Position numbers and translations under genes: made by a program
Assembly (NCBI GenBank): GCA_010084195.1
Contig: RGPS01000042.1
Coordinates: forward strand, 1 to 33,159
DNA: 33,159 nt
Origin: Terriglobia bacterium
Lineage (GTDB): Bacteria > Acidobacteriota > Terriglobia > Bryobacterales > Bryobacteraceae
Direction: 5' to 3'
Shown: positions 5,035 through 31,686 of the stretch, in pieces
Position numbering within the stretch: the stretch's first letter is position 1
Layout of the letters: each line of letters begins with the position of its first letter
Notes under the pieces: generated by a model
Database searches by the model: none
What the model saw: only the letters and a program-made list of their open reading frames with translations
Told to the model about the DNA's origin: nothing

Positions 5035-5040
5035 TATACT
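5035..5040 (+). promoter_or_regulatory. Possible internal -10 box ahead of the ApnO-like gene
   Basis: TATACT, 5 of 6 matches to the bacterial -10 consensus, directly follows the kinase stop codon and lies about 44 bases before the GTG start of the next gene. No good -35 is seen 17 bases upstream, so this is only a candidate secondary promoter. Confidence 0.25.
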
Positions 5041-5083
5041 CAACACACCAGTCGGGCATAGCCGGGCAGGTGAGGACGGGACA

Positions 5084-5938
5084 GTGGCGCAGACAATCGC
5101 AATCTTTGGGGCAGGCGGCAAGATGGGCTGCCGCATTACGGACAACTTCCGGGGTTCGGCACATACGGTTTTGTATGTGGAAGTGAGTCCTGCGGGCATT
5201 GAAAGACTGGCTTCCAGGGGCCTGGCGGTTACGTCCCAGGAAGAAGCGGTTGCAGCAGCTGATGTCGCGATTCTGGCTCTGCCGGATTCGCTCATCGGGA
5301 AAGTGGCGCCGACGCTTGTGCCCTCATTCAAACCCGGGGCGATGGTGATCTGTCTGGACCCTGCCGCGCCGCACGGCGGTGAGCTGCCAAAGCGTGAAGA
5401 CATCGCGTACTTCATCACCCACCCCTGCCATCCGCCCGTGATTCACGACGAAACGGAGCGGGATGCGCAACTGGATTTCTTCGGTGCGATCAAGGCGAAA
5501 CAGCATATCGTGTGCGCGCTGATGCAGGGCAGCGAAGCGGACTATGCCAATGGCGAGGCTCTGGCCCGGCAGATGTTCGCGCCGGTGATGAACGCTTATC
5601 GGGTGACGGTGGAGCAAATGGCGATTCTGGAGCCTGCGTTGTCGGAGACCGTGGCTGCCACCTGCATGACGGTGATGCGCGAAGCCATTGATGAAGCGGT
5701 GAAGCGTGGCGTTCCGGCGGAAGCTGCCCGCGAGTTCATTCTGGGCCATATGAAAGTCAACATTGGCATCCTGTTCGGCTATATTGGGTCACCGTTCTCG
5801 GACGGGGCCTTGATGGCGATTGAGCGTGGCAAGAAGAAGCTGTTTCAGCCGAACTGGAAGGATGTTTTTGAGCCCGAAAACATAATGGCGGAAATCAGGG
5901 CCATCACGGCCGGGACTTCAGCTGCGCAAAAGACTTAG
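5084..5938 (+). CDS. apnO: NAD-dependent dehydrogenase with PGDH_C domain, probable D-apionate oxidoisomerase
   Basis: I choose the GTG at 5084 (284 residues): a TGAGG ribosome-binding site lies 8 bases ahead and the Rossmann fold then starts at once with TIAIFGAGGKMG. The upstream open frame overlaps the kinase gene and is not protein-like. The GxGGxMG dinucleotide motif and the THPCHPPVIHDET segment fit the 6-phosphogluconate-dehydrogenase-like family with the PGDH_C domain, to which D-apionate oxidoisomerase (D-apionate to 3-oxo-isoapionate) belongs. As third gene after the RLP and DUF1537 kinase (49-bp gap) it would supply the kinase's substrate. The alternative is a dehydrogenase for another branched or four-carbon sugar acid. 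Confidence 0.75.
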   Translation: MAQTIAIFGAGGKMGCRITDNFRGSAHTVLYVEVSPAGIERLASRGLAVTSQEEAVAAADVAILALPDSLIGKVAPTLVPSFKPGAMVICLDPAAPHGGELPKREDIAYFITHPCHPPVIHDETERDAQLDFFGAIKAKQHIVCALMQGSEADYANGEALARQMFAPVMNAYRVTVEQMAILEPALSETVAATCMTVMREAIDEAVKRGVPAEAAREFILGHMKVNIGILFGYIGSPFSDGALMAIERGKKKLFQPNWKDVFEPENIMAEIRAITAGTSAAQKT

Positions 5939-19359: not shown

Positions 19360-19680
19360 CTACTCTGCCGACTGTTTCATGGCCTCAAACTTCTCCATAA
19401 TGTGCTGGTAGGCGGCCCGCTGGGCACGAACAATGTTCGACCGAAGGAAGTCGGCCTGCTCGGCAATATACTCGCGGTCCGCAGCTGTCTTCTCTTCGAA
19501 GGCAGCCTCGTAGCGGATCAGATTGATGCGGCCTTCGAGGCGGGGCACGTACTCATCGTGGAAATACTCGTCAGCCAATTCCCGAAGGCTGTGCTGCGCT
19601 GCCGGGTCCAGCAATTCAAAACCTGGCACCTCTTCAGCAATTTCCGCAATCGTTTCTTTCAGATACTCCGCGTGTGTCAT
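19360..19680 (-). CDS. 106-residue unknown protein, last gene of the photoreceptor operon
   Basis: An acidic, helix-rich protein beginning MTHAEYLKETIAEIAEEVPG, with AAFEEKTAADREYIAEQADF in its second half. There is no signal peptide, membrane segment or catalytic motif. Its ATG lies 6 bp after the stop of the methyltransferase gene, with AAAGG in between, so it is probably co-transcribed with the MerR-DUF1475-DUF2062-DUF1295-methyltransferase genes. Its 3' end runs into the RhuM relic on the other strand. A small accessory subunit or adaptor is possible, but nothing shows it. Confidence 0.6.
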   Translation of the reverse strand: MTHAEYLKETIAEIAEEVPGFELLDPAAQHSLRELADEYFHDEYVPRLEGRINLIRYEAAFEEKTAADREYIAEQADFLRSNIVRAQRAAYQHIMEKFEAMKQSAE

Positions 19681-19686
19681 GAACCT

Positions 19687-20736
19687 TTAGGATGACGCAC
19701 GGGCCTTCTCGAAGAGGTAGTGGCAGACAAGCCACTCCTCGCCATCACTGTATCCGAACAGTTCCGCACACGCCATAAAGAAGACCCGCCACCGCACCAG
19801 CCATCGCAACGCCTCAGCCTCGCCGTAGACCCCGGCAAAGAGCTGCAGGATCTCTTCCCGGTGCTGGTCCGTCAACAGCAGCCATTCTTCCGAGGTTCGC
19901 TGGTAGTGGGTCCCGGAAACGTTCCACTGCCTGACGAGCCACATGTCGCGCTGAAAAACGGGCAGCAGCCCCGCGCTGGGCATGATGCCACCCGTGAAGA
20001 AGTGTTCAGCCATCCAGTCGCCGGAACCTTTTGCCACAAACGGGTACGCCACCGTTTGATGTGCAAAAACGTGGATAAACAGCATCCCGTCGGGCTTCAG
20101 CCAGGTGGACACACGGTGCATCAGTTCCTGATAATTCCGCATGTGCTCAAACATCTCGACGGAAACGACCCGATCGAAATGGCCGGTGACGCCCGGGGAA
20201 AAGTCGTTCATGTCGGCAGTGATGATGTTCAGATTGCCGAGGCCGCGGAGCCGGGCCTGCTCCAGAATATACTCCCGCTGCGAGGCAGAATTCGAGACAC
20301 CCGTGATGCTGGAATTGGGAAAGTGCTCGGCCATATAGAGCGACAGCGAGCCCCAGCCGCAGCCGAGTTCGAGGACGTTCTGGCCATCGGCGAGTTGGGC
20401 ACGGGCTGCCGTCAGATCGAGCATTGCCCTCTCCGCCTCCCCCAGAGTCTCCACACCCTCCGGGAAATAACAGGAGCTGTACTTCAGGTGAGGGCCGAGG
20501 ACCATTTTGAAAAACGCGGCGGGCACTTCGTAGTGCTGCCGGTTGGCATCGGCGGTGTGCAGGGCCACCGGACTCTGCTTCAGGTCGGCGACGAGCGCGG
20601 TGAGGCGGCCCTGAACGGCAGAGGCCCCCCCGGCAGTCTCCTCCCGGAGACGGACGGCACACAGATGGCGAATGGCGCGACGGAGAAGCCAGTCGGGCAG
20701 CAAGTCACGTTCGAGGATGGGTTCGTACCAGTTCAT
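19687..20736 (-). CDS. CFA synthase-like SAM-dependent methyltransferase (short, coclaurine N-methyltransferase-like form)
   Basis: The ATG at 20736 overlaps the DUF1295 stop (ATGA) and gives 349 residues; upstream codons belong to the DUF1295 gene in another frame. Motifs: QHYEVPAAFFKMVLGPHLKY (68-86 region), SSCYFPEG, the SAM-binding loop VLELGCGWGS (121-130), SVEMFEHMRNY and LFIHVFAHQT. It belongs to the cyclopropane-fatty-acid-synthase superfamily but to the branch that also holds coclaurine N-methyltransferases, so the acceptor may be a fatty acyl chain or another lipid. It is a different branch from the second methyltransferase at 26141. Co-transcribed with the MerR photoreceptor gene and DUF1295. 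Confidence 0.85.
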   Translation of the reverse strand: MNWYEPILERDLLPDWLLRRAIRHLCAVRLREETAGGASAVQGRLTALVADLKQSPVALHTADANRQHYEVPAAFFKMVLGPHLKYSSCYFPEGVETLGEAERAMLDLTAARAQLADGQNVLELGCGWGSLSLYMAEHFPNSSITGVSNSASQREYILEQARLRGLGNLNIITADMNDFSPGVTGHFDRVVSVEMFEHMRNYQELMHRVSTWLKPDGMLFIHVFAHQTVAYPFVAKGSGDWMAEHFFTGGIMPSAGLLPVFQRDMWLVRQWNVSGTHYQRTSEEWLLLTDQHREEILQLFAGVYGEAEALRWLVRWRVFFMACAELFGYSDGEEWLVCHYLFEKARASS

Positions 20737-21524
20737 TTGGATGTCGAAGTTGGAAACCAGGGAAGGAAGGCGTTGGTGGTGCGCTGGTATTCGCGGTATT
20801 CGTCGCCGCGACTGCGGAGAGCTTGCGCTTCGGTAGCCGGGATACCGGTGACACGCAGCAGGAAGTAAAGGATCAACGCGGGCGAAATCAGCCCCAGGTA
20901 GCCGTAAGGTGAGGCGAGGGCGAAGAGGGCGAAGGAAACCCAGATCAGCCATTCGAAGAAATAGTTGGGATGCCGGGAGTAGAACCAGAGCCCGTCACGG
21001 CAAGTTCGGCCCTTGCTGGTGGGGCGTGCTTTGAAGGCGGCCAGTTGGCGGTCGGCAAGGCTCTCGCCAAAGACGGCTCCGAGCCACAGGACCGCGGCCC
21101 CGATCTCCAGAGGAGAGAGCCCTGGCGCAGGGTTACGCGCCGCAAGCAGGAAGGGCGCGGACAGGACGACATCGAGAAGACCCTGGAACAGATAGAAGAC
21201 CAGAAATTTGGTCCCGAGATTGGTTTTCCACTGGCGGCGAAGTTCCTGGTAACGGCCTTCTTCGGGATGCCCCAGGATGCGATCAAAGAGGAGATGGAAA
21301 GCGAGCCGCAGGCCCCAGATGACTGACATGCCGCCAATCAGGGCCGCGCGCACCGGAAAGCCTCCGGCAAAGTATGCGTAGAAACCACCAAGCAGAGCCA
21401 GACCGGCAGCCCAGCCGAAATCCACGATGGCCGCATTGCGCATCGGGAAGTGGATGAGCCAAAGCACGACCATCAGAGTGGCAGTGGCGGCAGTCCCCCA
21501 GAGAAGCAGAGAAACAGTACTCAT
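20733..21524 (-). CDS. DUF1295 membrane protein (steroid 5-alpha-reductase-like)
   Basis: The ATG at 21524 overlaps the DUF2062 stop by 4 nt and gives 263 residues with about six to seven membrane segments. The family signature DGLWFYSRHPNYFFEWLIW lies near residue 185; this is the SRHPNY motif of the DUF1295/isoprenylcysteine-methyltransferase/5-alpha-reductase clan, whose members reduce double bonds or methylate lipids with NADPH or SAM. DUF1295 genes commonly sit beside CFA-family methyltransferases in bacterial lipid-modification operons, so a role as lipid reductase is plausible here. It overlaps the methyltransferase gene downstream (ATGA). Confidence 0.88.
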   Translation of the reverse strand: MSTVSLLLWGTAATATLMVVLWLIHFPMRNAAIVDFGWAAGLALLGGFYAYFAGGFPVRAALIGGMSVIWGLRLAFHLLFDRILGHPEEGRYQELRRQWKTNLGTKFLVFYLFQGLLDVVLSAPFLLAARNPAPGLSPLEIGAAVLWLGAVFGESLADRQLAAFKARPTSKGRTCRDGLWFYSRHPNYFFEWLIWVSFALFALASPYGYLGLISPALILYFLLRVTGIPATEAQALRSRGDEYREYQRTTNAFLPWFPTSTSK

Positions 21525-22003
21525 TGGGCGACCTCTTCGGCGGGAATGGGTTCCGTCGGGTTCAAGCGACGGAGGGGAAACAGAACCAGGTTGTAGATGG
21601 CCAGCGCTGCGACCGGACTGAGGACGAGCCAGGCGCCGATGCCGCTCAGGGTGGCGGGCCAGAATATGCGGATGGCCCCCCACGGGTCGGAGGCTACAAG
21701 CTTCAGAAGTTGAGTCAGAGGAGGCAGAGAGGGCAGGCTGAAGAAGTGCGAGCCCACGCTCATGAAGGGGATGAGGAGCGCCAGCTGGGCGGGGTAAAGA
21801 ACGTAGTTCACCAGTTGCATCAGAGGCAGGTTGAGACGCAACCAAGCTGCCCCGCCGGCGCACAACAAGGTGGTGGAGCCGAGCACGGGGAATACGGCCA
21901 GAACTGCGGCCAACGCCGTCGCCTGCGCTATTTTCTCGGGAGTTGTGCCTTGCCGGAGCAGGGCGATGACGGTATCCACAACCTTGCGCAGGGGCCGGAT
22001 CAT
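21521..22003 (-). CDS. DUF2062 membrane protein
   Basis: Starting at the ATG at 22003, which overlaps the DUF1475 stop by 4 nt, gives 160 residues. The sequence KIAQATALAAVLAVFPVLGS followed by a long hydrophobic, Pro-containing region and a C-terminal membrane hairpin fits DUF2062, a small inner-membrane family of unknown function seen near lipid and glycan genes. The ATGA overlaps on both sides tie it to DUF1475 and DUF1295 in one operon. Confidence 0.75.
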   Translation of the reverse strand: MIRPLRKVVDTVIALLRQGTTPEKIAQATALAAVLAVFPVLGSTTLLCAGGAAWLRLNLPLMQLVNYVLYPAQLALLIPFMSVGSHFFSLPSLPPLTQLLKLVASDPWGAIRIFWPATLSGIGAWLVLSPVAALAIYNLVLFPLRRLNPTEPIPAEEVAQ

Positions 22004-22335
22004 GCCGTCCGCCGGGCGAACACGTCGGACGCGGGTTGCTCCGCGCGAAGCTGGCTGAGCGCGATAAACAAGTAGGCCCCGGTCGCGATGTTGCCCAGCG
22101 CGAAAACCAGCAAGAGCCAAAGGGTCCGAACCGGCCATGTGCGTTCCCGGAAAGCGATCCAGAGCCAGAACAGGGTAAAACCGCAGTACGCATCCCAGAA
22201 CGTCGCCATGGCCCAGGGGTTTGCCGCGTAGGTGGGCCAGGCGGCCCAGAGACTTTCGGCCATACTGGTGCGGATGGTGACGGCCAGCATAAACAGGCTG
22301 ATTGCGGCAGCCACGAGTTTCAGCAGAGTCTTCAC
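22000..22335 (-). CDS. DUF1475 small membrane protein
   Basis: I choose the GTG at 22335, which overlaps the MerR stop as GTGA and gives 111 residues; an in-frame upstream start would overlap further and lacks support. It has three to four membrane segments and the typical ATFWDAYCGFTLFWLWIAFRE segment region (DAYxGF then WIAF-R/K-E), as in DUF1475. Function unknown. It is the first gene after the photoreceptor gene and is translationally coupled to it. Confidence 0.7.
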   Translation of the reverse strand: MKTLLKLVAAAISLFMLAVTIRTSMAESLWAAWPTYAANPWAMATFWDAYCGFTLFWLWIAFRERTWPVRTLWLLLVFALGNIATGAYLFIALSQLRAEQPASDVFARRTA

Positions 22336-23216
22336 CGCAGCGCCTCCACGCACAAGCGTTCAAAAGTTTCCATATCGGCCGTTAGTACGACAGATGCAGG
22401 CAGAGCAGATTTCGATTGATCCGCGAAAGGCCCACCCAACCACAAAGAAACTTTCGGGGGCAGAAGCGAGGCCAGTTCGCCGATGGCAGCAGCCGTCAAA
22501 CTTCTGCCACTGTTGCCGATGACGACGGCGACCGGGCGAATCCGGGAGGCCGCCCGGATGACCTCTGCGGCCGGCAGATTGGCCCCCAACAGAACAGGCG
22601 ACCAGCCGAGAGTAGCCGCCAGCATGGCCGCCGCAAGAATTCCGAAGTCGTGGAAATCGCCCGAAAGAGTTGTCAGGAGCATTCGGGGAGCCCGCGCCCG
22701 GGGAGGGTGGAGGCGCAACAGGGAACCAAGGATGCACCGCATAGAGGCCGACACCAGATGCTCTTCCGCAATTCCCATCTCTCCTTTATGCCACCTCTCC
22801 CCCACTTCCCGCATCAATGGGAGGAGTGTTTGAAGAACAAGATCCCGGGGCGGTGTCAGGATGGCGAGGCGATTCAATTCCGCGTTGGCACGAATGTCGT
22901 CGAAATCGGCGAAAAGATCCGCAAGCTGCCGGACATGGAGAGGCACGTCGGAAGCCGCAGGTTCGGAATCGGCACCCGGACCGAGCAAATCCTGCAGGTC
23001 CGCAGTGCTGAGAGGGGCGATTTGACTAATCGAGTAACCCTGTTCAACGAGGCTGCGGAGCAGGATCAGCTTCGCGATGTGGTCTTTGGTGTAAAGACGA
23101 CCGCGATTGGTTCGCTCCGGGGTAACTGCCTGGTAGCGTCGCTCCCAGGCCCGGAGCGTGTCAACGCTAAGCGAGGTGAGCCGCGCGGCCGTCCGGATTG
23201 GGTAATGTGGGTCCAT
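22332..23216 (-). CDS. MerR-family regulator with cobalamin-binding domain (CarH/LitR-type photoreceptor)
   Basis: A 294-residue repressor-type regulator. The MerR helix-turn-helix is at 5-68 (YPIRTAARLTSLSVDTLRAW, RGRLYTKDHIAKL). Next comes a helical bundle with the W-x9-EH motif: Trp142, Glu152, His153. A Rossmann-like B12 domain follows with DFHDFG (187-192), whose His189 is the lower cobalt ligand. His143 follows Trp142, matching the His that replaces the adenosyl group after light in Thermus CarH. All residues needed for adenosylcobalamin light sensing (W131, H132, E141, H142, H177 in Thermus numbering) are therefore present. Such proteins bind DNA as tetramers in the dark and fall apart in light. 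It heads the minus-strand lipid operon and faces the desaturase operon. Confidence 0.92.
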   Translation of the reverse strand: MDPHYPIRTAARLTSLSVDTLRAWERRYQAVTPERTNRGRLYTKDHIAKLILLRSLVEQGYSISQIAPLSTADLQDLLGPGADSEPAASDVPLHVRQLADLFADFDDIRANAELNRLAILTPPRDLVLQTLLPLMREVGERWHKGEMGIAEEHLVSASMRCILGSLLRLHPPRARAPRMLLTTLSGDFHDFGILAAAMLAATLGWSPVLLGANLPAAEVIRAASRIRPVAVVIGNSGRSLTAAAIGELASLLPPKVSLWLGGPFADQSKSALPASVVLTADMETFERLCVEALR

Positions 23217-23227
23217 TTCCCACCTCG

Positions 23228-23256
23228 ATAGTAACGAGGGCGCTCCGTATTGTCAA
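23228..23256 (-). promoter_or_regulatory. Promoter of the MerR photoreceptor operon
   Basis: On the minus strand TTGACA (23256-23251) and TACTAT (23233-23228) are separated by exactly 17 bases. Transcription would begin about 5 bases before the ATG at 23216, with GGTGGG as the only ribosome-binding site, so the leader is very short. The -35 lies inside an arm of the palindrome at 23250-23284. Confidence 0.6.
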
Positions 23257-23284
23257 GGCTTTGTCCATGACATACACTTGACAA
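23250..23284. promoter_or_regulatory. 35-bp dyad operator between the divergent lipid operons
   Basis: Outer arms TTGTCAAG (23250-23257) and CTTGACAA (23277-23284) are perfect inverted repeats. An inner pair TGTC (23262-23265) and GACA (23269-23272) shares the same centre at 23267. Each outer arm contains the TTGACA -35 box of one divergent promoter, so a protein bound here would block both. The neighbouring B12-dependent MerR protein is the obvious candidate (inference). Confidence 0.65.
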
Positions 23285-23306
23285 ACCACCATAAGAACCG
23301 TAACGT
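23278..23306 (+). promoter_or_regulatory. Promoter of the desaturase-methyltransferase operon
   Basis: TTGACA (23278-23283), a 17-base spacer and TAACGT (23301-23306; 3 of 6 consensus matches). The ideal -35 with a weak -10 sits 12 bases before the ATG at 23318; the -35 is in the right arm of the dyad. Confidence 0.45.
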
Positions 23307-23317
23307 AAAGGCAAGGG

Positions 23318-24133
23318 ATGATGAAAGAAAATTCCGAATATCAGTGGGGTGCAGTGCTTGCTTTTGCCGGCCTGCATGTGGCCGCACTGGGGTTGATCTG
23401 GACGCCGTGGACATGGGGCTACGTGGCGCTGGCGGCCTTCACGTATTTCCTGCGAATGTTTGGCGTGACGGCGGGATATCACCGCTACTTCAGCCATCGA
23501 AGCTACCGGCTGGGGCGACTGTCGCAGTTCCTGATGGCCTTCCTGGCCCAGACTTCGGCACAAAAAGGTGCTTTGTGGTGGGCCGCTCATCATCGGGTTC
23601 ACCACCGCGAATCGGACCGTGAAAAAGACGTCCATTCTCCGTGGCAGAAGGGGTTTTGGTGGTCGCATGTGGGCTGGGTCCTTTCGAACGAACACGACGG
23701 CTTCGACGAGCGGGCGATGGCGGACTTCGCGAAATACCCCGAGCTGGTCTGGCTGAACCGATACCACTGGGTTCCGACCGTTGTGTTTGCCGCGGGCGTT
23801 CTGGCACTCACCGGCTGGCCTGGGTTTTTTTGGGGCTATGTGCTTTCCACGGTACTGCTGTATCACTGCACGTTCAGCATCAACTCCATAGGCCATATCT
23901 GGGGTAATCGCCGTTTTGACACGCCGGACTATTCGAAGAACAATGCGCTCCTGGCAGTGATCACCATGGGCGAGGGCTGGCACAACAATCATCACTTTTC
24001 TCCGGGCAGTTGCCGGCAGGGTCTGCGCTGGTGGGAGGTGGATACCACCTGGTATCTGCTGAGTGCCCTGAGTTGGGTCGGCCTGACCGGAGAGTTGCGG
24101 CCCTTCCGCAAGGTGGACCAAGACACAAAGTGA
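23318..24133 (+). CDS. Acyl-CoA/acyl-lipid desaturase (delta-9 type)
   Basis: A 271-residue integral-membrane di-iron desaturase. The three histidine boxes are HRYFSH (55-60), HRVHH (92-96) and HNNHH (222-226), all intact, with hydrophobic segments between them. It should insert a cis double bond in acyl chains. Two adjacent ATG codons (23318, 23321) are possible starts, both after AAGG. It is the first gene of the operon divergent from the B12 photoreceptor, and the following oxidoreductase gene starts with a GTGA overlap. The double bond would provide the substrate for the CFA-family methyltransferase downstream. Confidence 0.93.
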   Translation: MMKENSEYQWGAVLAFAGLHVAALGLIWTPWTWGYVALAAFTYFLRMFGVTAGYHRYFSHRSYRLGRLSQFLMAFLAQTSAQKGALWWAAHHRVHHRESDREKDVHSPWQKGFWWSHVGWVLSNEHDGFDERAMADFAKYPELVWLNRYHWVPTVVFAAGVLALTGWPGFFWGYVLSTVLLYHCTFSINSIGHIWGNRRFDTPDYSKNNALLAVITMGEGWHNNHHFSPGSCRQGLRWWEVDTTWYLLSALSWVGLTGELRPFRKVDQDTK

Positions 24134-25383
24134 ACGGATGCAAAACAGTTGCGGTGATTGGGGCCGGGATTTCGGGCCTGGCAGCCGCCTGGCTCCTGAG
24201 CCGGAAGTACGAAGTTTGGGTTCTGGAGCGGGCAGACCGAATTGGCGGGCACACCAACACCGCAAAGGTACAGAGTTCGACCGGAACCGTCGCCGTCGAC
24301 ACCGGCTTCATTGTCCATAACGAGAAGACGTACCCCTTGTTCTGCCGCCTGATGCAGGAACTGGGCGTGGCGACGCAGGCCAGCGACATGTCGTTCGGCG
24401 TAAGTACTGCGGGCGGGCGGTTTGAATACTCCAGCCGGGGCCTGAAGGGCTTCTTTGCGCAGTGGACCAACTGGCTCAGGCCGAGGCATTATGGCTTGCT
24501 GCTGGAGATCCTGCGGTTCAACCGGGAAGCCCCGAAGTTCCTCCTTGGCAACGAAGGTGTGGAAGTGACCCTGGGTGCCTTCCTGCTGCGCGGCAAGTAC
24601 AGCAAAGACTTCATTGAGCAGTATCTGTATCCTATGTCCTCCGCTGTGTGGTCCATGCCGCAGAACGAACTGGCGGGCTTCCCTGCCCGGACTCTGTTGG
24701 GCTTTTTCCAGAATCACGGGATGCTGGGGATCAATACGCACCCGCGCTGGAAGACCATCACGGGCGGCAGTGATCAATACCTGGGGCCGATGACGGAACC
24801 GTATAAGAACCGCATTCTGACCGGGGCTGGAATTCGGCGCGTATCCAGAACGGAACCCGGAGTTACCGTGGACTTTGAAGCTCGGGCCGCCATGCAGTTT
24901 GACCACGTGGTGTTCGCCTGCCACGGCAACCAAATTCTTCCGCTGCTGCAAAACCCCACCGAAACGGAACGCAGCGTGCTGCAGAATTTCCAGACGTCGA
25001 GAAATGAAGTGTGCCTGCATACTGACGAAACGCTCCTGCCGCAACGCCTGGCAGCCCGCGCTTCGTGGAACTACCGGATCGGCAATGGCAGTAAGACAAC
25101 CATGACTTACGACATGAACCGCCTGCAGAATCTGGCCACGCAGGAACAGTATTGTGTCAGCCTGAATTCGCCCGGGGCCGTGCGACCGGGGAAGGCAATT
25201 CAATGGCTGGAGTACTATCATCCGGTGTACAATGTCCCTGCCGTGAAAGCGCAGCAGAGGTGGGCGGAGATTAGTGGGGTGGACCGGGTCCACTATTGCG
25301 GCGCGTATTGGTTCTACGGCTTCCACGAAGATGGTGTCCGGTCGGCCGTTCGGGTGGCCGAAGCCCTGGGGGTCCAGTGGTAG
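24130..25383 (+). CDS. FAD-dependent oxidoreductase (amine-oxidase-like, COG2907 type)
   Basis: I choose the GTG at 24130, which overlaps the desaturase stop (GTGA) and puts VAVIGAGISGLAAAW at the very N-terminus; 417 residues. The dinucleotide fold GAGISG (11-16) is followed by LERADRIGGHTNT, the FAD-ribose site. The C-terminus YCGAYWFYGFHEDGVRSAVR completes the FAD-binding domain. Proteins of this type stand next to DUF1365 and CFA-family genes in many bacteria, and related flavoproteins act on methylated fatty acids in furan fatty acid synthesis in Rhodobacter (UfaD type). Here it could dehydrogenate the acyl chain after methylation (inference). Confidence 0.87.
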   Translation: MNGCKTVAVIGAGISGLAAAWLLSRKYEVWVLERADRIGGHTNTAKVQSSTGTVAVDTGFIVHNEKTYPLFCRLMQELGVATQASDMSFGVSTAGGRFEYSSRGLKGFFAQWTNWLRPRHYGLLLEILRFNREAPKFLLGNEGVEVTLGAFLLRGKYSKDFIEQYLYPMSSAVWSMPQNELAGFPARTLLGFFQNHGMLGINTHPRWKTITGGSDQYLGPMTEPYKNRILTGAGIRRVSRTEPGVTVDFEARAAMQFDHVVFACHGNQILPLLQNPTETERSVLQNFQTSRNEVCLHTDETLLPQRLAARASWNYRIGNGSKTTMTYDMNRLQNLATQEQYCVSLNSPGAVRPGKAIQWLEYYHPVYNVPAVKAQQRWAEISGVDRVHYCGAYWFYGFHEDGVRSAVRVAEALGVQW

Positions 25384-26144
25384 CGATCGCCGAGCCGGGG
25401 ATCTATCGCGGGACGCTTCGGCACCGTCGTTTCCGGCCGCACGCTCATGAATTCCGTTACCCTGTGTTTCTGGCGATGCTCGACATCGACCGGCTTCCGG
25501 AAACCATGGCACGGTCGGCATTTTCCAGTTACAACCACTTCAACTGGGCCAGTTTTGAAGAGAGGGATCACTTCGGAGACCCCCACGTGGCGCTGCGCCA
25601 ACGGCTGGAAGAGGCGGCCAGGACCGAGGGTGTTTCATTGCCAACCGGGCGGGTGATGCTGTTGACGAACCTGCGCTATCTGGGTTATTGCTTCAATCCG
25701 ATATCCTTCTTCTACTTCCTGGATGAGCAGGGCAACGTGCCCGTAGTGCTGGCAGAAGTCAACAGTACCTTCGGAGAGCACAAAAACTATTGGCTGTGGA
25801 GCGGGAATCGCCTGGGCGAGATCGGCATGCGGTTTACCTGTGCCAAGGAGATGCATGTCTCGCCGTTCATGCCCATGGAATTGGGCTACGAGTTCGCACT
25901 CACGGCCCCGGGCAAGACCCTGACCGCTCATATGGAAACCGTGGACGGCGGAGCTCCCCTGTTTGACGCGACCCTGACCCTGGAGCGCAGACCCTGGACC
26001 GGGGGCGAGTTGTTGCGGACTTTACTGGCGCACCCGGCCATGACCGCAAAAGTTGTCTTCGCCATCCACTGGGAGGCGTTGCGCCTCTGGCTGAAAAAAG
26101 TGCCGGTCTTCACGCACCCGGACAGGAAAGAACAGACACCATGA
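25377..26144 (+). CDS. DUF1365 protein
   Basis: A GTG at 25377 gives 255 residues and overlaps the oxidoreductase gene by 7 nt; further upstream the frame lies inside that gene and is not protein-like. Family marks are GTLRHRRFRPHAHEFRYPVF near the N-terminus, LLTNLRYLGYCFNPISFFYF (about 104-123) and AKEMHVSPFMPMELGYEF. DUF1365 has no settled biochemical role but is found almost always between the FAD oxidoreductase and the CFA-family methyltransferase, as here, which suggests a joint task on modified fatty acids. It ends with an ATGA overlap with the methyltransferase gene. Confidence 0.9.
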   Translation: MVAIAEPGIYRGTLRHRRFRPHAHEFRYPVFLAMLDIDRLPETMARSAFSSYNHFNWASFEERDHFGDPHVALRQRLEEAARTEGVSLPTGRVMLLTNLRYLGYCFNPISFFYFLDEQGNVPVVLAEVNSTFGEHKNYWLWSGNRLGEIGMRFTCAKEMHVSPFMPMELGYEFALTAPGKTLTAHMETVDGGAPLFDATLTLERRPWTGGELLRTLLAHPAMTAKVVFAIHWEALRLWLKKVPVFTHPDRKEQTP

Positions 26145-27400
26145 CAAGAAACCTCGCGCGCGGCGCATTTTTGAAAAACATGGCCGGCATGCGGCATGGG
26201 TCCCTGCGATGGACGGATGGCAGCGACTCGCAAGTTTTCGGGGATGCTGCCAGCGACCTGCAGGCCGAGATCACCGTGGTGGACCAGAGCTTTTACTGGA
26301 AGCTCATTTCGGGCGGTGAAGACGGTGCGGGCGATGCCTGGGTGGACGGGCTCTGGACTTCGCCAGACCCGGTGGCCGTAGTTCGCTTCGCGATCCGCAA
26401 TCTGGATTCGTTGGAACAAGGGAATCGGCTGTCGTCTTTCATCAGCCGGATGCTGAATCGACTGGCGCATCTGCGCCGGGATAATACGGTGGAAGGTTCA
26501 CGGCGAAACATCCATGAACATTACGATCTGAGCAACGATTTCTTCCGGTTGTTCCTGGACAAAAAGATGGTCTACTCCTCGGCTATTTACGAGCGCGAAG
26601 AAACTACGCTCGAGGACGCCCAGATCGAGAAAATCGACCGTCTTTGCCGCAAGCTCGGTTTGCAGCCAGGAGATCATGTTCTGGAAATCGGAACCGGCTG
26701 GGGCGCGATGGCGCTGCATGCGGCGGAAGTGTATGGGTGCCGCGTGACGACCACCACGATCAGTCAGCAGCAGTTCGACGGGGCCAAAGCTGCGTTTGCA
26801 AGATCCGGCGCCCGGGACCGGATTGAACTGTTGTTCGAAGATTACCGGAAGCTGCAGGGCCAGTACGACCACATCGTCAGCGTGGAGATGTTTGAGGCTG
26901 TGGGCCTGGACCATTACGACGAATTCTTTGGAGCCTGTGACCGGCTGCTGAAGCCCGGTGGCGCCATGGCGATGCAGGCGATTACCATGAACGAGCAGAA
27001 GTTCCCGGCGTATCAAAAAGGCAGTGACTGGATTCAGAAGCGAATTTTCCCCGGAGCCGAACTGGCCTCCGTGAAAGAGGTGCTGGCGTCCCTGCAGCGG
27101 GCCACAAAGATGTCGCTGCTTCACCTCGAAGACATTGGGATTCACTACGCGCTGACGCTGGCGGAGTGGCGGCGTCGATTCCACGCGCGGGCGAGTGAAG
27201 TAAGGGCTCTTGGCTTTGATGACCGCTTCATGCGGACGTGGGATTACTACCTTGCATATTGTGAAGCAGCGTTCCGCGAAAGGCATATCGGCGACGTCCA
27301 GGTGGTGATGACGAAGAACAACAATGTGCGCTGGATGCCGGGGGATCCTGGCGTCGGCACGCCGCAGATGTTCGCGCAGGAAATGGTGGGCCGGCGATGA
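26141..27400 (+). CDS. CFA-synthase-family methyltransferase (possible UfaM-type)
   Basis: A 419-residue SAM-dependent methyltransferase of full CFA-synthase length: an N-terminal lipid-binding region, HEHYDLSNDFF (125-135), SAM loop VLEIGTGWG (180-188), and SVEMFEAVG with Glu252. Compared by eye with E. coli Cfa, the bicarbonate-site Cys139 is Ser147 (YSSAIY) and His266 is Gln279 (MQAITM), while Glu239 and Ile268 are kept as Glu252 and Ile281. This suggests that it does not make a plain cyclopropane but a methylated unsaturated acyl chain, as UfaM-type enzymes do (inference). ATGA overlaps on both sides link it to DUF1365 and SRPBCC. Confidence 0.88.
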   Translation: MTRNLARGAFLKNMAGMRHGSLRWTDGSDSQVFGDAASDLQAEITVVDQSFYWKLISGGEDGAGDAWVDGLWTSPDPVAVVRFAIRNLDSLEQGNRLSSFISRMLNRLAHLRRDNTVEGSRRNIHEHYDLSNDFFRLFLDKKMVYSSAIYEREETTLEDAQIEKIDRLCRKLGLQPGDHVLEIGTGWGAMALHAAEVYGCRVTTTTISQQQFDGAKAAFARSGARDRIELLFEDYRKLQGQYDHIVSVEMFEAVGLDHYDEFFGACDRLLKPGGAMAMQAITMNEQKFPAYQKGSDWIQKRIFPGAELASVKEVLASLQRATKMSLLHLEDIGIHYALTLAEWRRRFHARASEVRALGFDDRFMRTWDYYLAYCEAAFRERHIGDVQVVMTKNNNVRWMPGDPGVGTPQMFAQEMVGRR

Positions 27401-27870
27401 AGGTGTACGAGCTGCGGCGGGAGACCGTGATCCCCCGACCGGTGAACGAGATCTTCGATTGGTTTTCCGATGCCGGGAATCTGGAGACGCTGACGCCGGA
27501 CTTCCTGCATTTTAAGATCCGCACCCCCAGGCCTATTGTGATGAAGCCTGGCGCACAGATAGAGTACTCGATTCGGGTCCGCGGCATCCCGGTGCGATGG
27601 AAGACGACAATCGAGACCTGGGATGCGCCTCGTAGTTTCACTGACACCCAAACAAAGGGTCCGTATAGCCTGTGGCACCACACGCACCGGTTCCGCGAGC
27701 ACGATGGCGGGACGTGGATGGAGGACGTGGTGAAGTACGCGCTGCCCTTCGGCATCCTGGGGCAGTTTGCCCATTGGCTGATGGTTCGCCGGGATGTGGA
27801 AACCATCTTCGACTACCGAGCGACAAAGATCGGCGAGTTGTTCGCCACGCGACCGAGCGCTGCACGTTAA
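27397..27870 (+). CDS. SRPBCC-family (START-like) protein
   Basis: A 157-residue soluble protein with the helix-grip fold: YELRRETVIPRPVNEIFDWF at the N-terminus, then FLHFKIRTPRP, and a C-terminal helix MVRRDVETIFDYRATKIGEL. SRPBCC proteins have a deep hydrophobic pocket for lipids or polyketides. Overlapping the methyltransferase gene by ATGA and ending the operon, it may carry or act on the modified acyl product (inference). No catalytic residue can be named. Confidence 0.85.
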   Translation: MKVYELRRETVIPRPVNEIFDWFSDAGNLETLTPDFLHFKIRTPRPIVMKPGAQIEYSIRVRGIPVRWKTTIETWDAPRSFTDTQTKGPYSLWHHTHRFREHDGGTWMEDVVKYALPFGILGQFAHWLMVRRDVETIFDYRATKIGELFATRPSAAR

Positions 27871-27912: not shown

Positions 27913-28014
27913 CAACTGCCGCGCAGGCCGGCGATTCCATATGTTGCGAGGGGTCGCCACCTGGGTCGCCATCTGGATTGCCAGCGCCACGGGGCCACTT
28001 CTGCCACTGGCTGC

Positions 28015-28020
28015 TAAGAT
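28015..28020 (+). promoter_or_regulatory. Candidate -10 box (TAAGAT) for the kinase gene
   Basis: TAAGAT ends 7 bases before the ATG at 28028 and no ribosome-binding site is visible, so the transcript may be leaderless. Confidence 0.35.
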
Positions 28021-28027
28021 CCGGTGT

Positions 28028-29733
28028 ATGGACCGCATCGGTCGCTACCGTATTATCAGCGAGGTCGGGCGGGGTGCGATGGGGGTTGTTTATCGTGCCT
28101 CCGATCCTTCCATTGGCCGTGAAGTAGCGCTGAAGACTGTACGCCTGGATGTGGACGGGCGGGACAAATTGCGTGAGCGGTTGTTTCGGGAGGCCCGCTC
28201 GGCGGGAGTCTTATCCCACCCCGGCATCGTGACCATTTATGACATGGGCGACGAGGATGGCCTCGCCTACATCGCCATGGCTCTGGTGCGGGGACCGTCG
28301 CTCGAAGCTCTGTTGTCCGCTCCTGAGCCGATGTCCGGAGCCAGGTTCTTTTCCATTCTTCGGCAGACTGCGATTGCTCTCGATTACGCCCATTCCCGGG
28401 GTGTGGTGCATCGCGACATCAAGCCGGGCAATATCATGACGGACGAGGATGGCCATGTCAAAATCACGGACTTTGGCATTGCACGCTTCGCTTCCGCCGA
28501 GCGCCTCAACGATACCAGAACAATCACGGGCACGCCGAACTACATGTCGCCCGAGCAGGTGCAGGGTCTGGATGCAGATGGGCGGACGGACCAGTTTTCG
28601 CTGGGGTAGTGGCCTGGGAGATGCTGACCGGCGAGAAGCCTTTTTCCGGTGACAATCTGAGTACCGTGGTGTACCGAATCGTCTCAGAAGAGCCCTTGCC
28701 CGCGCAGCACCTGAACGGAACCCTGACGCCGCGGATTGATGAGGTTTTGCGGCGTGCTCTGGCTAAAGATCCGGCGAAGCGGTTTGCGAATTGTGCGGGT
28801 TTTGTTGGGGCGCTGGAGATGGCGTGCGCGGAATCTCCCGGCTGGATGCCGGTTGCGGTGGGCGCTGCGGCCAGCCTGCCGACTATCGGGACGCAGTGGT
28901 CAGAAGCGTTGCCGGGGCCATCGCCGGTTCGCGCTTCTGAAGCTGCTCCGCCCGCTGTTGAAGCTGCTACGCCCGCTGTTGAAGCTGCTACGCCCGCTGC
29001 TGAAGCTGCTACGCCCGCTGTTGAACGGGCTAAGCCCGCGCCGAAGCGTGCCAGGGTCTGGTGGTGGCTTGCGGCAGGAGTATTGACGCTGATCGCTTTG
29101 GGCGCAGTCTGGCTGGGCGCGGGGGGGCAGCCATGGCAACCGGAACAAACAACGGATCGGGCTCTGTCCCCTGTAGTGCACGGCAGGCAACAACCGGACC
29201 AGCCCGTCGAGGTCCCCCCTGTCGTGCACTCCGATCCCGTGCCCGAGCCACCGCAGCCTGCCAGACCGGAGCCAGGCGAAGCCGAACGTGCAAGTACGCC
29301 TCAGCAGCCCACCGGACTCCTGCAGGATCTCCGACTCGCCTCTACTCCTGCCGGAGCCCGCGTGATTCTGGACAATAACACTGCGCTGTCCTGTGAGACG
29401 CCCTGTGTGCTGCATGCGCGGCCCGGGACACACCATATCAAAATCTCGCTGGCGGGCTACAGAAACGAGTACCGGGAATTTCGTGTGCAGGATGCCGCTC
29501 TCGACCTGACGCCGATCACCTTGCAACAGGTAATGGGAACCCTGATGCTGAGCAGTACCCCGGACGGGGCGACCGTTACGGTCGACGGCATCCGCGCGGC
29601 ACAGACAACACCTTCGGCCTTACCGTTGAAGCCGGGAAGCCATGTCCTTGTGGTTGAAAAAGGCGGCATGCGGCACAGCGAAACGGTTCAGGTTGGCGAA
29701 GGGACAGTCTACCTGCGCGTCACGTTGCGTTGA
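28028..29733 (+). pseudogene. Ser/Thr protein kinase with PEGA repeats, one-base frameshift
   Basis: The first frame starts at the ATG at 28028 (IGRYRIISEVGRGAMGVVYR) and holds all the main kinase motifs: VALKTV lysine, HRDIKPGN, DFGIA and TGTPNYMSPEQ. It stops at 28607-28609 right after DQFSLG. The next frame continues with AWEMLTGEKPFSGDNLSTVV, so the expected join is SLGVVAWEML, and one G has been lost from a G-run at 28603-28606. The remainder has a PAVEAAT repeat, one membrane segment (WWWLAAGVLTLIALGAVWLG) and two extracytoplasmic PEGA domains ending at 29733. Repaired, it would be a normal 568-residue membrane receptor kinase. A sequencing error is a real alternative. Confidence 0.8.
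28936..29040 (+). repeat. 21-nt tandem repeat in the kinase gene
   Basis: Five units of 21 bases, the middle three nearly identical, encode the heptapeptide PAVEAAT in the juxtamembrane linker. The period is a multiple of three, so copy-number change would keep the frame. Confidence 0.85.
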
Positions 29734-29745
29734 GATCTGGAGTAA

Positions 29746-30567
29746 TCAGGCAAGCCGACGACGAATGATCGCGGCACCAAGCAGGACACCGCCAAGCAGG
29801 ACGCCGGTGGACGGCTCCGGAACCACCTGGCTGGAGTAGTTGAAATTGGTGGCTGAGGTAAAGGAGGTGCCTGGACCCGCATCTACGTAGTAGTGTGCCG
29901 TGTTGGAATAATCAGCCACAATACTGGTGGAAAAATTCGACAGACTGGAGGCGTAGGTTACAACATCACCGCCGTAGCTCAGAATAATCGAATCACCCGC
30001 GCGCAGGTTATACACCGTTGCGGACAAAGTGCCCGTGTCAGCGGAACCGGATTGTTCCATCCAGGAGAGGTCAACAATATTATTCCCCTGGAAGATCACG
30101 TGATAATCAAAAAGCCCATACCAACTGCTTTGGTCACAGCAGGCAATCCGACCGGGGTTGAGGCCCGTAATTGCCATCGAAAATGTAACCCCGCCGAGAG
30201 GATCGGTCCCCGCGACTGTCAGCTGGTCTTCGACCCGAACAAAGGTCCGGGTCTGTGCTGCTGAATTCGATTCGTTATGGGCATAGGTGGAGGCCCCATA
30301 AGCCCTGATTGTTCCCACCTGGACGTTGGCGGCGGAGCTGGCGCTGCCTGCGGCGAAAGCGGCGGTGGTGGAGAACGCCTGAGGCGTCGCCATGAGGACC
30401 GGGTTGTTGTACTCGAACAGGTCCTGATGCTGGTCAGAGCCATAGGGGTTCGAGGACGAAACCTGGGCCGTAGTAGAGCCGAAGATCCGAGCCGCGAGGG
30501 CGGCGGAACTACAAGTGAGGGTCAACGTCCCCAGTAAAATACATTTGCGGATGAGCTGGTAATTCAA
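29746..30567 (-). CDS. PEP-CTERM sorting-domain protein
   Basis: I choose a TTG start at 30567 because GGAGGA lies five bases ahead and the signal peptide LIRKCILLGTLTLTCSSAAL follows directly; no ATG fits. The product is 273 residues, rich in Ser/Thr/Asn/Gly and of beta type, exported, and ends with VPEPSTGVLLGGVLLGAAII then RRRLA: the PEP motif, one membrane helix and the Arg cluster read by an exosortase. It would be processed and placed on the cell surface or in the matrix. The body matches no domain I recognise. It converges on the kinase gene with a 12-bp gap. Confidence 0.85.
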   Translation of the reverse strand: MNYQLIRKCILLGTLTLTCSSAALAARIFGSTTAQVSSSNPYGSDQHQDLFEYNNPVLMATPQAFSTTAAFAAGSASSAANVQVGTIRAYGASTYAHNESNSAAQTRTFVRVEDQLTVAGTDPLGGVTFSMAITGLNPGRIACCDQSSWYGLFDYHVIFQGNNIVDLSWMEQSGSADTGTLSATVYNLRAGDSIILSYGGDVVTYASSLSNFSTSIVADYSNTAHYYVDAGPGTSFTSATNFNYSSQVVPEPSTGVLLGGVLLGAAIIRRRLA

Positions 30568-30642
30568 GAAAATCCTCCGGAGCTTCGTTCTCCACGATAC
30601 GTCACAGTGGTGTAGCACGAAACTGGTTAGTGGCACATAGAA

Positions 30643-30660
30643 ATCCGCCGTCTGGCGGGT
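30643..30660 (-). terminator. Hairpin after the TonB-receptor-like tail
   Basis: CCGCC, loop GTCT, GGCGG, with one further A-T pair outside a G-T wobble, then TTTCTAT on the minus strand. It directly follows the TGA at 30660-30662 and fits an intrinsic terminator of the gene whose tail is left here. Confidence 0.45.
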
Positions 30661-30722
30661 CAGAACTGGAGGCGGGCCTGCACTTGCAACCAGCGTTTGG
30701 TGGCAGCGGCCTGGGCGGTGCG
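30660..30722 (-). pseudogene. C-terminal tail of a probable TonB-dependent receptor, cut by the IS element
   Basis: Between the IS end and a TGA at 30660-30662 the minus strand encodes TAQAAATKRWLQVQARLQF and stop. Alternating hydrophobic residues and a terminal Phe are the mark of the last beta-strand of an outer-membrane barrel, and RxLQxxxRLQF-like endings are common in acidobacterial TonB-dependent receptors. Only about 20 codons remain and the upstream part is not found beyond the other end of the IS. The assignment rests on a short stretch. Confidence 0.4.
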
Positions 30723-30755
30723 TGTCAACAACTTTGAGACACTCCAAGACGATAT

Positions 30756-31686
30756 TTAATGAGTATTTTCGTCTGAGCTTGGCGGTTTGTTGATCCAGAC
30801 CTCCTTGGGAAGCAGGGGAAGGGTGGGCGGTCGGCGGACAAAGCGCTCGGGATGAGCGACATAAGCGGCATCGAGAGCCAGTTGCCCATTTTCGCGAACT
30901 TCGGCGGCCAGACCGTAGTGCACGATGGCGGGCGTCATCCTGCCGATCCCGGAGTGATGGTGCTCGTCGTTGTACAGGGGAAGAAGATGTGGCAGAATGC
31001 GCGACCATTCTCGAGACAACCGAAGCGGTCGGGAAACTACGCTGAGATCTGCCAGCAGCAGGGCCACCAGCTTGGATCGCATGGCGGAGCCGCGGTCGGC
31101 GTAAAGGCCGAGGGTATCGGGTTGAATGTTCTGCTTCTCGCAGGTTTCCTCGATAAGCTTTTTGGCCAGTTCGGCACTTTCACGGGGAGCCAGCATCCAA
31201 CCCACAACGTAGCGGCTGAAAACATCAAGAATGACGTAAAGGCAGAAGTAGGTCCACTTGGCCGGTCCGCACAGTTTGGTGATGTCCCAACTCCACAACT
31301 GATTGGGTGCAGTAGGCAGCAGTTCGGGCTTCTGGTACTGGGGATGGACGAGCTGATCGCGACGCTCGCGCGTTGGGCCGTTCTCTTCCAGTACCCGGTA
31401 CATCGTCCGAAAAGAACAGAGATATTGGCCGTCATCCAGCAAAGAGGCGTGGATGGCGGCCGGTGCGCAATCCTGAAAGCGTTCGGAATTCAATACAGTA
31501 AGCACGCCTTCGCGTTCGACGGAGCTCAGCGCACGAGGCGGTACGGGCGGCAGGAATCGGAATCGCTTCCTCCAGAAGCGGTCCGTATAGCGGGCGACGG
31601 CGATAGAAGGAAGCCCTTGCCACGCCGAGCGCGTCACACGCTGAGGCCACGCCGATGGTGGATGCAAGTTCCACGACGGCATTCAT
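30756..31686 (-). pseudogene. IS3 orfB transposase, frameshifted and missing the catalytic Glu region
   Basis: The start is at about 31686 (MNAVVELASTIGVASACDAL, GVARASFYRRRPLYG). The frame changes near 31560 and then continues VPPRALSSVEREGVL, RFQDCAPAAIHASLLDDGQY, NQLWSWDITKL (first catalytic Asp), ILDVFSRYVVGWMLA and LYADRGSAM (second Asp). After LLLADLS about 40 residues are replaced by a short unrelated stretch, removing the segment that normally holds the catalytic Glu. It resumes at LPLYNDEHHHSGIGRMTPA and ends at 30756. It cannot be an active transposase. Confidence 0.8.

Follow-up and report, generated by a model that had tools for sequence, protein, structure and literature searches.

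The DNA analysed here, referred to below as the window, is a stretch of 33,159 nucleotides from a Terriglobia bacterium of the phylum Acidobacteriota (GenBank assembly GCA_010084195.1, contig RGPS01000042.1, positions 1 to 33,159). Between positions 19687 and 27870 it carries the gene for a CarH/LitR-type MerR regulator and two divergent gene sets, one headed by this gene and the other by a membrane fatty acid desaturase, with a putative operator between them (Table 1). A first-pass annotation, made from the letters alone, had coupled the regulator to DUF1475, DUF2062, DUF1295 and a CFA (cyclopropane fatty acid synthase)-like methyltransferase, and had set opposite them a desaturase, an FAD oxidoreductase, a DUF1365 protein, a CFA-family methyltransferase and an SRPBCC protein. 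A Pfam scan of the open reading frames (ORFs) of the window found all ten genes, the SRPBCC gene with a weak match. The interval then given, 22332-27870, covers the right-hand operon and the carH gene; the left-hand operon lies outside it and extends to 19687.

Both sets are tightly packed. All four junctions of the carH operon are 4-nucleotide overlaps (GTGA, ATGA, ATGA and ATGA), as are three of the four in the desaturase operon (GTGA, ATGA and ATGA); at the remaining one, the GTG start of the DUF1365 gene at 25377 lies within the 3' end of the FAD gene. Because the junctions overlap, each gene set is very likely a single transcript.

Comparisons were made with a near sample of 61 genomes (its own and 60 relatives), a wide sample of 396 Acidobacteriota genomes, and a cross-phylum set consisting of the best 80 of at least 589 confirmed stretches in named genomes, mostly from other phyla and including Nitrospira, Gammaproteobacteria, Planctomycetes and a few Acidobacteriota. 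Published systems are cited, by PMC number, from the portions of those papers that were available.

Table 1. Genes and putative control sites of the two divergent operons (window coordinates)
Feature	Position	Strand	Basis
CFA2, CMAS-family methyltransferase, candidate second methylase	19687..20736	-	Pfam; ATGA overlap; PDB 6gkv
DUF1295 protein	20733..21524	-	Pfam; ATGA overlap; weak match to 3-oxo-5-alpha-steroid 4-dehydrogenase
DUF2062 protein	21521..22003	-	Pfam; ATGA overlap
DUF1475 small protein	22000..22335	-	Pfam; GTGA overlap with carH
CarH/LitR class I-like MerR regulator; HTH, four-helix B12-binding_2 and B12-binding parts	22332..23216	-	Pfam, PDB matches, residues
Putative carH-operon promoter, TTGACA-17-TACTAT, -35 within operator	23228..23256	-	Consensus scan, 10/12
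Putative CarH operator TGTCAAGGCTTTGTCCATGACATACACTTGACA, two head-to-head pairs of 11-bp-spaced GACA repeats	23251..23283		Sequence, recurrence
Putative desaturase-operon promoter, TTGACA-17-TAACGT, -35 within operator	23278..23306	+	Read from sequence
Membrane fatty acid desaturase (DES)	23318..24133	+	Pfam FA_desaturase
FAD oxidoreductase, UfaD-like	24130..25383	+	Pfam Amino_oxidase/FAD; neighbourhood
DUF1365 protein, UfaO-like	25377..26144	+	Pfam; assigned GTG start
CFA1, CMAS-family methylase, UfaM-like	26141..27400	+	Pfam; motif positions
SRPBCC/polyketide-cyclase-like small protein, possible lipid carrier	27397..27870	+	Weak Pfam Polyketide_cyc2 match, 27.6 bits, cut-off 27.4

The CarH-class regulator and its probable cofactor

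The regulator matches PF13411 (MerR_1) and PF02607 (B12-binding_2) above cut-off, and its best matches in the PDB are 3whp (3.6e-22) and 5c8d (4.3e-22), both Thermus CarH entries. The light-sensing residues named in the first-pass annotation, Trp142, His143, Glu152, His153 and His189, can all be read in the translation at those numbers; in an alignment of 15 members H143 varies, while the other four never change. With the CarH proteins of Thermus thermophilus and Myxococcus xanthus the regulator thus shares the MerR helix-turn-helix (HTH), the two-part B12 module, the W-x9-EH motif and the light-sensing histidines, whereas their targets are carotenoid genes and the target here would be a fatty-acid cluster. 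The NCBIfam CarH equivalog scores 107.3 bits for this protein, below its cut-off of 400; the assignment is to the CarH class only, and no equivalence to a characterised CarH is claimed.

The genome also encodes a class II ribonucleotide reductase (558 bits, cut-off 400). Since this reductase is an adenosylcobalamin (AdoCbl) enzyme, AdoCbl is probably available in the cell.

Alternatively, the regulator might sense the B12 level, redox state or singlet oxygen, or might repress independently of B12 in the manner of class II LitR, whose members retain only the four-helix part and act with a LOV protein (PMC9758184). Its PF02310 match, at 28.8 bits, is under the cut-off of 32.1, and no adenosyltransferase of the PduO or the CobA type was detected in the genome (94.4% complete, 628 contigs); the latter observation, like the low equivalog score, weighs against an AdoCbl-dependent photoreceptor. 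Moreover, at three cross-phylum loci (L112, L139 and L179) the MerR neighbour is devoid of W-x9-EH, and the one at L112 has no B12-domain match in Pfam. However, our regulator keeps W-x9-EH and H189, both parts of its B12 module are recognisable, and the AdoCbl-type reductase is present. The neighbours of CarH elsewhere also count against the alternative: among 18 fetched loci in which CarH was not listed beside DUF1365, the stretch has a fasciclin match in 8 and a photolyase match in 5 (one of them weak), and SRPBCC or NmrA-like matches occur in others. We consider control by a signal other than light through B12 unlikely, and AdoCbl-based light sensing the better reading of this protein.

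A candidate furan fatty acid pathway

In Rhodobacter and Rhodopseudomonas, a methylated furan fatty acid is formed on phospholipids by UfaM (a SAM-dependent methylase), UfaD (an NAD/FAD-binding desaturase) and UfaO (a DUF1365 protein, with O2 as the oxygen source), and in Rhodopseudomonas palustris RPA2571, RPA2570 and RPA2569 are the neighbouring genes ufaD, ufaO and ufaM (PMC7380195). The FAD-DUF1365-CMAS order of the window is the same as this ufaD-ufaO-ufaM order, and furan chains are therefore the leading candidate for the product. This likeness to the Ufa proteins is one of family membership and gene order, and the assignments to UfaM, UfaD, UfaO and, below, FufM are putative. FAD, DUF1365 and CFA1 form an uninterrupted same-strand trio at 47 of 53 acidobacterial loci and at 77 of the 80 cross-phylum loci.

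CFA1 departs from E. coli CFA at two positions: E-A-V-G and Q-x-I stand where the E. coli enzyme has E-H-V-G and H-x-I. We assume that both positions bear on bicarbonate binding. The change characterises the family, since M-x-E-A together with Q-x-I was found in 126 of 126 length-filtered CFA1 homologues (MFEH and HTI in E. coli CFA), and the E. coli-type cyclopropane fatty acid synthase residues were absent from all 126. For CFA2, the closest PDB entry is coclaurine N-methyltransferase (6gkv, E 1.2e-77), and its identity to CFA1 is 28% over 277 positions, a level common among distant CMAS relatives. FufM, which adds a second methyl group by methylating 9M5-FuFA, is 26% identical to UfaM (PMC7380195).

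The linked membrane desaturase and the second CMAS gene set the cluster apart from the Rhodobacter and Rhodopseudomonas pathway, for which the available text of PMC7380195 names no desaturase of the membrane type. The HX4H, HXXHH, HXXHH order of the desaturase histidine boxes is kept in 69 of 72 length-filtered homologues. In the clusters L081, L082, L086, L087 and L105, where no membrane desaturase was detected, ORFs of one other family lie nearby, and the L082 ORF, the one tested of the five, is an acyl-ACP desaturase (PF03405), which suggests that double-bond supply is part of the function of the cluster.

It could also be that the products are methyl-branched, methyl-diene or cyclopropane chains rather than furans, with the control by CarH unchanged. 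In the PDB and in NCBIfam, CFA1 has its relatives among cyclopropane and mycolic acid synthases, and UfaM with UfaD alone yields methylated monoenes and dienes (PMC7380195). The UfaO role of the DUF1365 protein of the window is putative: its AlphaFold2 model is of high confidence (pLDDT 90.8), and a Foldseek search of the PDB with this model returned nothing at E<=0.001 (best E 2.5e-3). The weak best fold matches, fatty-acid-binding-like Ycf58 and nitrobindin (TM 0.31 and 0.29), were not used as an argument. Nevertheless, DUF1365 is the published furan-forming family (PMC7380195) and sits in the middle of the trio in nearly all the cross-phylum loci, and the uniform departure of CFA1 from E. 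coli CFA speaks against simple cyclopropane synthesis. Products other than furans therefore receive a minor share of our confidence, and furan fatty acids remain the preferred assignment.

The putative divergent operator and linkage across genomes

The start codons of the two operons are 101 bp apart, and a 33-bp palindrome lies between them, each half of which consists of two GACA units 11 bp apart, with the halves facing each other. The outer TTGACA on either side is usable as a -35 box, one for each operon. The CarH operator of Thermus also overlaps a -35 box. According to a review, CarH binds tandem 11-bp repeats of the form nAnnTnnACAn (PMC8156234), so that an operator built of 11-bp repeats is common to those systems and to the window.

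Seven family members were compared: six retain the palindrome, and one has tandem repeats instead. In its strict form the palindrome was found in 10 of 24 CarH-linked acidobacterial clusters (the window, L033-L037, L081, L082, L086 and L097) versus 2 of 29 unlinked ones. These two (L087 and L105) belong to genomes (G259 and G433) that carry CarH on other contigs, where a fragment of the FAD gene beside CarH (L202 and L204) bears the palindrome as well. Of the 24 linked loci, 14 have tandem 11-mers of the form N4-T-N2-ACA-N 5' of the first pathway gene, against 2 of the 28 unlinked ones; dinucleotide-shuffled controls gave a mean of 0.09 per set, with maxima of 1 and 2. In another family of the same taxonomic order the repeats are tandem, and L043 and the near-copies L047 and L048 fit the published consensus in both units (TAACTATACAA followed by TATCTAAACAA in L047 and L048). 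Within its own genome the operator was found once (palindrome with <=3 mismatches; half-site with 1 mismatch), in a search whose reversed-pattern controls gave 1 and 2 chance matches and which more degenerate sites would escape. That a conserved CarH-like operator covers the promoter region is evidence for direct control by CarH, and the simplest reading would be that both operons are repressed from one site and that light relieves the repression.

Several observations weigh against this reading. Known CarH operators are tandem in the available text of the review (PMC8156234), whereas the operator here is head-to-head; it lacks the A that the published repeat has at position 2, and the repeat unit that we tested omits this base. 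The palindrome pattern was defined after seven loci had been viewed, and related loci are not independent. The tandem repeat is missing 5' of the first pathway gene in 10 of the 24 CarH-linked clusters, 3 of these 10 having it 5' of carH, and a less strict repeat test picked out 12 of 24 linked clusters but 4 of 29 unlinked ones as well (shuffles 0.17 and 0.28). The -10 box of the putative desaturase promoter matches TATAAT at 3 of 6 positions, and the consensus scan of the region, which returned 6 promoter-like sites where 2.6 were expected, listed the carH promoter and not that of the desaturase. Finally, 29 of the 53 acidobacterial clusters are without CarH in the fetched stretch, and so the furan module does not need CarH.

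The last two points would fit a regulator that governs its own operon only, with the pathway operon under other control, for example by an ECF sigma factor and ChrR as in Rhodobacter sphaeroides, where the furan genes belong to the sigma-E/ChrR core regulon (PMC6852236). With an ECF sigma factor and ChrR considered as possible regulators of the clusters that lack CarH, ECF-like ORFs were seen in four acidobacterial loci (L078, L080, L100 and L107), one of them confirmed by Pfam, and an ECF-like query gave no match at 1e-5 in the 80 cross-phylum loci. In the window, however, the TTGACA of the desaturase operon and that of the carH operon both lie inside the operator, and the palindrome or its tandem counterpart is kept throughout the seven family members. 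Such split control is rather improbable in our judgement, and joint repression of both operons by CarH is preferred.

Linkage between CarH and the pathway genes was then judged from the genome samples. In the 61 genomes, CarH with both HTH and B12 parts occurs in 17, DUF1365 in 18 and both in 16 (Fisher p 1.2e-11); a contig end truncates one of the 17 CarH matches (G003), and two others stop at query residues 230-238. Of the 16 genomes with both, 13 have the two genes on the same contig within about 5 kb, arranged either divergently, as in the window, or in a single direction with carH last. Across the 396 Acidobacteriota genomes the corresponding counts are 74, 62 and 37 (p 1e-15), CarH being counted by hand (profile start <=14, end >=240, E <=1e-20) with a search profile built partly from cluster-linked CarH proteins; the association still holds without the f29 group of shorter matches (30/29/25/297). 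Both Fisher tests take genomes as independent, and these genomes share phylogeny. Of 40 DUF1365 loci fetched from the 62 genomes with DUF1365, 11 have a CarH-like match nearby.

In the cross-phylum set, the companions of the trio are CFA2 (55 of the best 80 loci), DUF2878 (49), DUF1295 (48) and the desaturase (44). A CarH-like match is found in 11 of the 80 loci, one of them (L153) without the HTH, and 7 loci have an ORF with both the MerR motif and W-x9-EH. Of these seven, L144 and L161 are Acidobacteriota contigs from metagenome-assembled genomes that equal in length contigs already sampled, L148 and L156 are near-copies, and in L137 the ORF is about 5 kb from DUF1365 on the opposite strand. 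The other two are from metagenome-assembled genomes of Gammaproteobacteria, in which a W-x9-EH CarH (L117, 6597-7532; L131, 3245-4153) lies near the furan trio with a photolyase match in the same stretch. The same neighbourhood, sought across Acidobacteriota, thus recurs in other members of the phylum and also in Gammaproteobacteria.

On a tree of 36 CarH proteins, cluster linkage needs 9 changes, at least 7 of them on well-supported branches, and the association was therefore gained or lost repeatedly; linked proteins are not clearly more clustered than under shuffled labels (126 of 500 as low). For this tree, L202 and L204 were counted as linked through the FAD fragment beside them and L137 as not linked, and 36 is a lower count, given that the motif screen skips CarH proteins with isoleucine before RxWExR (L037, L148 and L156). 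Sister genus g32 offers an example: one species (G349, L194) has CarH beside photolyase and SRPBCC matches without DUF1365, and another (G247, L068) has the cluster without CarH.

Several of the genes come from families of unknown function, so that a shared purpose rests on their neighbourhood, and one might regard them as chance neighbours with no functional link. Co-occurrence in 16 genomes, out of 17 with CarH and 18 with DUF1365 among 61, makes the arrangement unlikely by chance, and the linkage recurs at separate places of the CarH tree. We give coincidence hardly any weight, and treat the regulator and the pathway genes as functionally connected.

Other features of the window lie outside this connection. 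A 106-aa ORF of no known family (19360-19680) starts 7 nucleotides past CFA2, with no homologue counted among the remaining clusters. Downstream of the SRPBCC gene, a Ser/Thr kinase domain (27941-28609, + strand) breaks off with a stop at profile position 184 of 263 and seems to run on in another frame, in an ORF (28609-29733, + strand) that also has PEGA domains, which indicates a frameshift or an assembly error. An integrase-core (rve) fragment at 30756-31682 (- strand) overlaps an ORF at 29746-31008 (- strand), the end of which looks PEP-CTERM-like by eye. At 2435-5938 (+ strand), a RuBisCO-like protein (PF00016) adjoins a sugar-acid kinase family protein (SBD_N/NBD_C) and a PGDH_C dehydrogenase, a set that presumably resembles RuBisCO-like sugar-acid catabolism of the isoapionate type.

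A proposed light switch and its significance

On balance, and with some reserve, we favour a model in which a B12-based, light-sensing repressor of the CarH type switches on furan fatty acid enzymes in the light. The first-pass annotation had predicted light-induced acyl remodelling, perhaps towards furan or methyl-branched chains; the ufa-like trio and the conserved operator, as evidence from sequence, bear this out and narrow the predicted product to furan chains.

The genes, their coupling, the operator, its conservation and the co-occurrence counts can be read from sequence. Judging from the known families, we infer the following photochemistry, repression and pathway order. In the dark, an AdoCbl-bound tetramer would sit on the 33-bp operator, covering both -35 boxes and keeping the carH and desaturase operons repressed. 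Light would cleave the Co-C bond, upon which the tetramer would dissociate and both operons would be transcribed. The desaturase would then provide cis-monounsaturated acyl chains, CFA1 (as UfaM) would methylate the chain, the FAD enzyme (as UfaD) would introduce a second double bond, and DUF1365 (as UfaO) would close the furan ring using O2. By guess, CFA2 may carry out a second methylation, as FufM does, and SRPBCC, DUF1295, DUF1475 and DUF2062 may be accessories that we assign to no particular step. As to purpose, our guess is that the furan chains would serve as scavengers or signals of singlet oxygen, and they could protect the cell from light damage.

Light-controlled ufa genes are a kind of system already known. 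In Pseudomonas mendocina, ufaM is induced 25- to 33-fold by light, and a class II LitR is involved in the light induction of ufaM in P. putida (PMC9758184). The PplR/PmlR regulon of Pseudomonas (phrB, an FAD oxidoreductase gene, ufaM and folE) resembles the window in having ufaM and an FAD oxidoreductase gene near a LitR gene, whereas the window has a B12-type regulator, a desaturase in the cluster and no photolyase in it (PMC9758184). The blue-light response of Vibrio cholerae likewise involves a MerR-like regulator, VCA0056, together with ChrR, and an induced CFA-type gene, VC1122; the locus tags of the MerR-like and CFA genes are far apart, and B12 sensing is not mentioned in the available text (PMC5241685). 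The furan genes of Rhodobacter are under sigma-E/ChrR (PMC6852236). New in the window are a regulator of the B12 type, one operator serving both divergent operons, and a desaturase and a second methyltransferase linked to the pathway genes. A literature search, whose coverage left out most subscription papers, returned no paper that connects furan fatty acids to CarH or to Acidobacteriota.

In view of the Pseudomonas work on class II LitR and ufaM (PMC9758184), it was incomplete of the first-pass annotation to name carotenoid and photolyase genes as what CarH-type proteins are best known for. Its remark that no such genes are present held good: none was recognised among the 30 window ORFs scanned, and carotenoid or photolyase control by CarH was accordingly rejected for this locus. 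Two photolyase-family matches lie elsewhere in the genome, both without an operator copy at the mismatch limits used.

A role in singlet-oxygen signalling and in defence has been proposed for furan fatty acids, and control of bacterial furan genes has so far been described, in the available texts, through sigma-E/ChrR and B12-free LitR (PMC6852236, PMC9758184). Here, the operator search in its own genome leaves the furan-lipid cluster as the only detected target of a B12-type photoreceptor. If the model is true, bacteria that are not known to be phototrophic would have a direct tie between green-light sensing and membrane chemistry, one site driving two divergent operons would make a compact light switch, and DUF1295, DUF1475 and DUF2062 would gain a setting in which their roles can be tested. 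More broadly, the linkage recurs in separate clades of CarH as well as in Gammaproteobacteria, which suggests that recruitment took place more than once. We see the chances as evenly balanced that Acidobacteriota have in this way made a B12 photoreceptor a dedicated furan-lipid switch, and would answer light through desaturation, methylation, furan formation and perhaps a second methylation by CFA2 with DUF1295, altering their membrane lipids where other bacteria make pigment.

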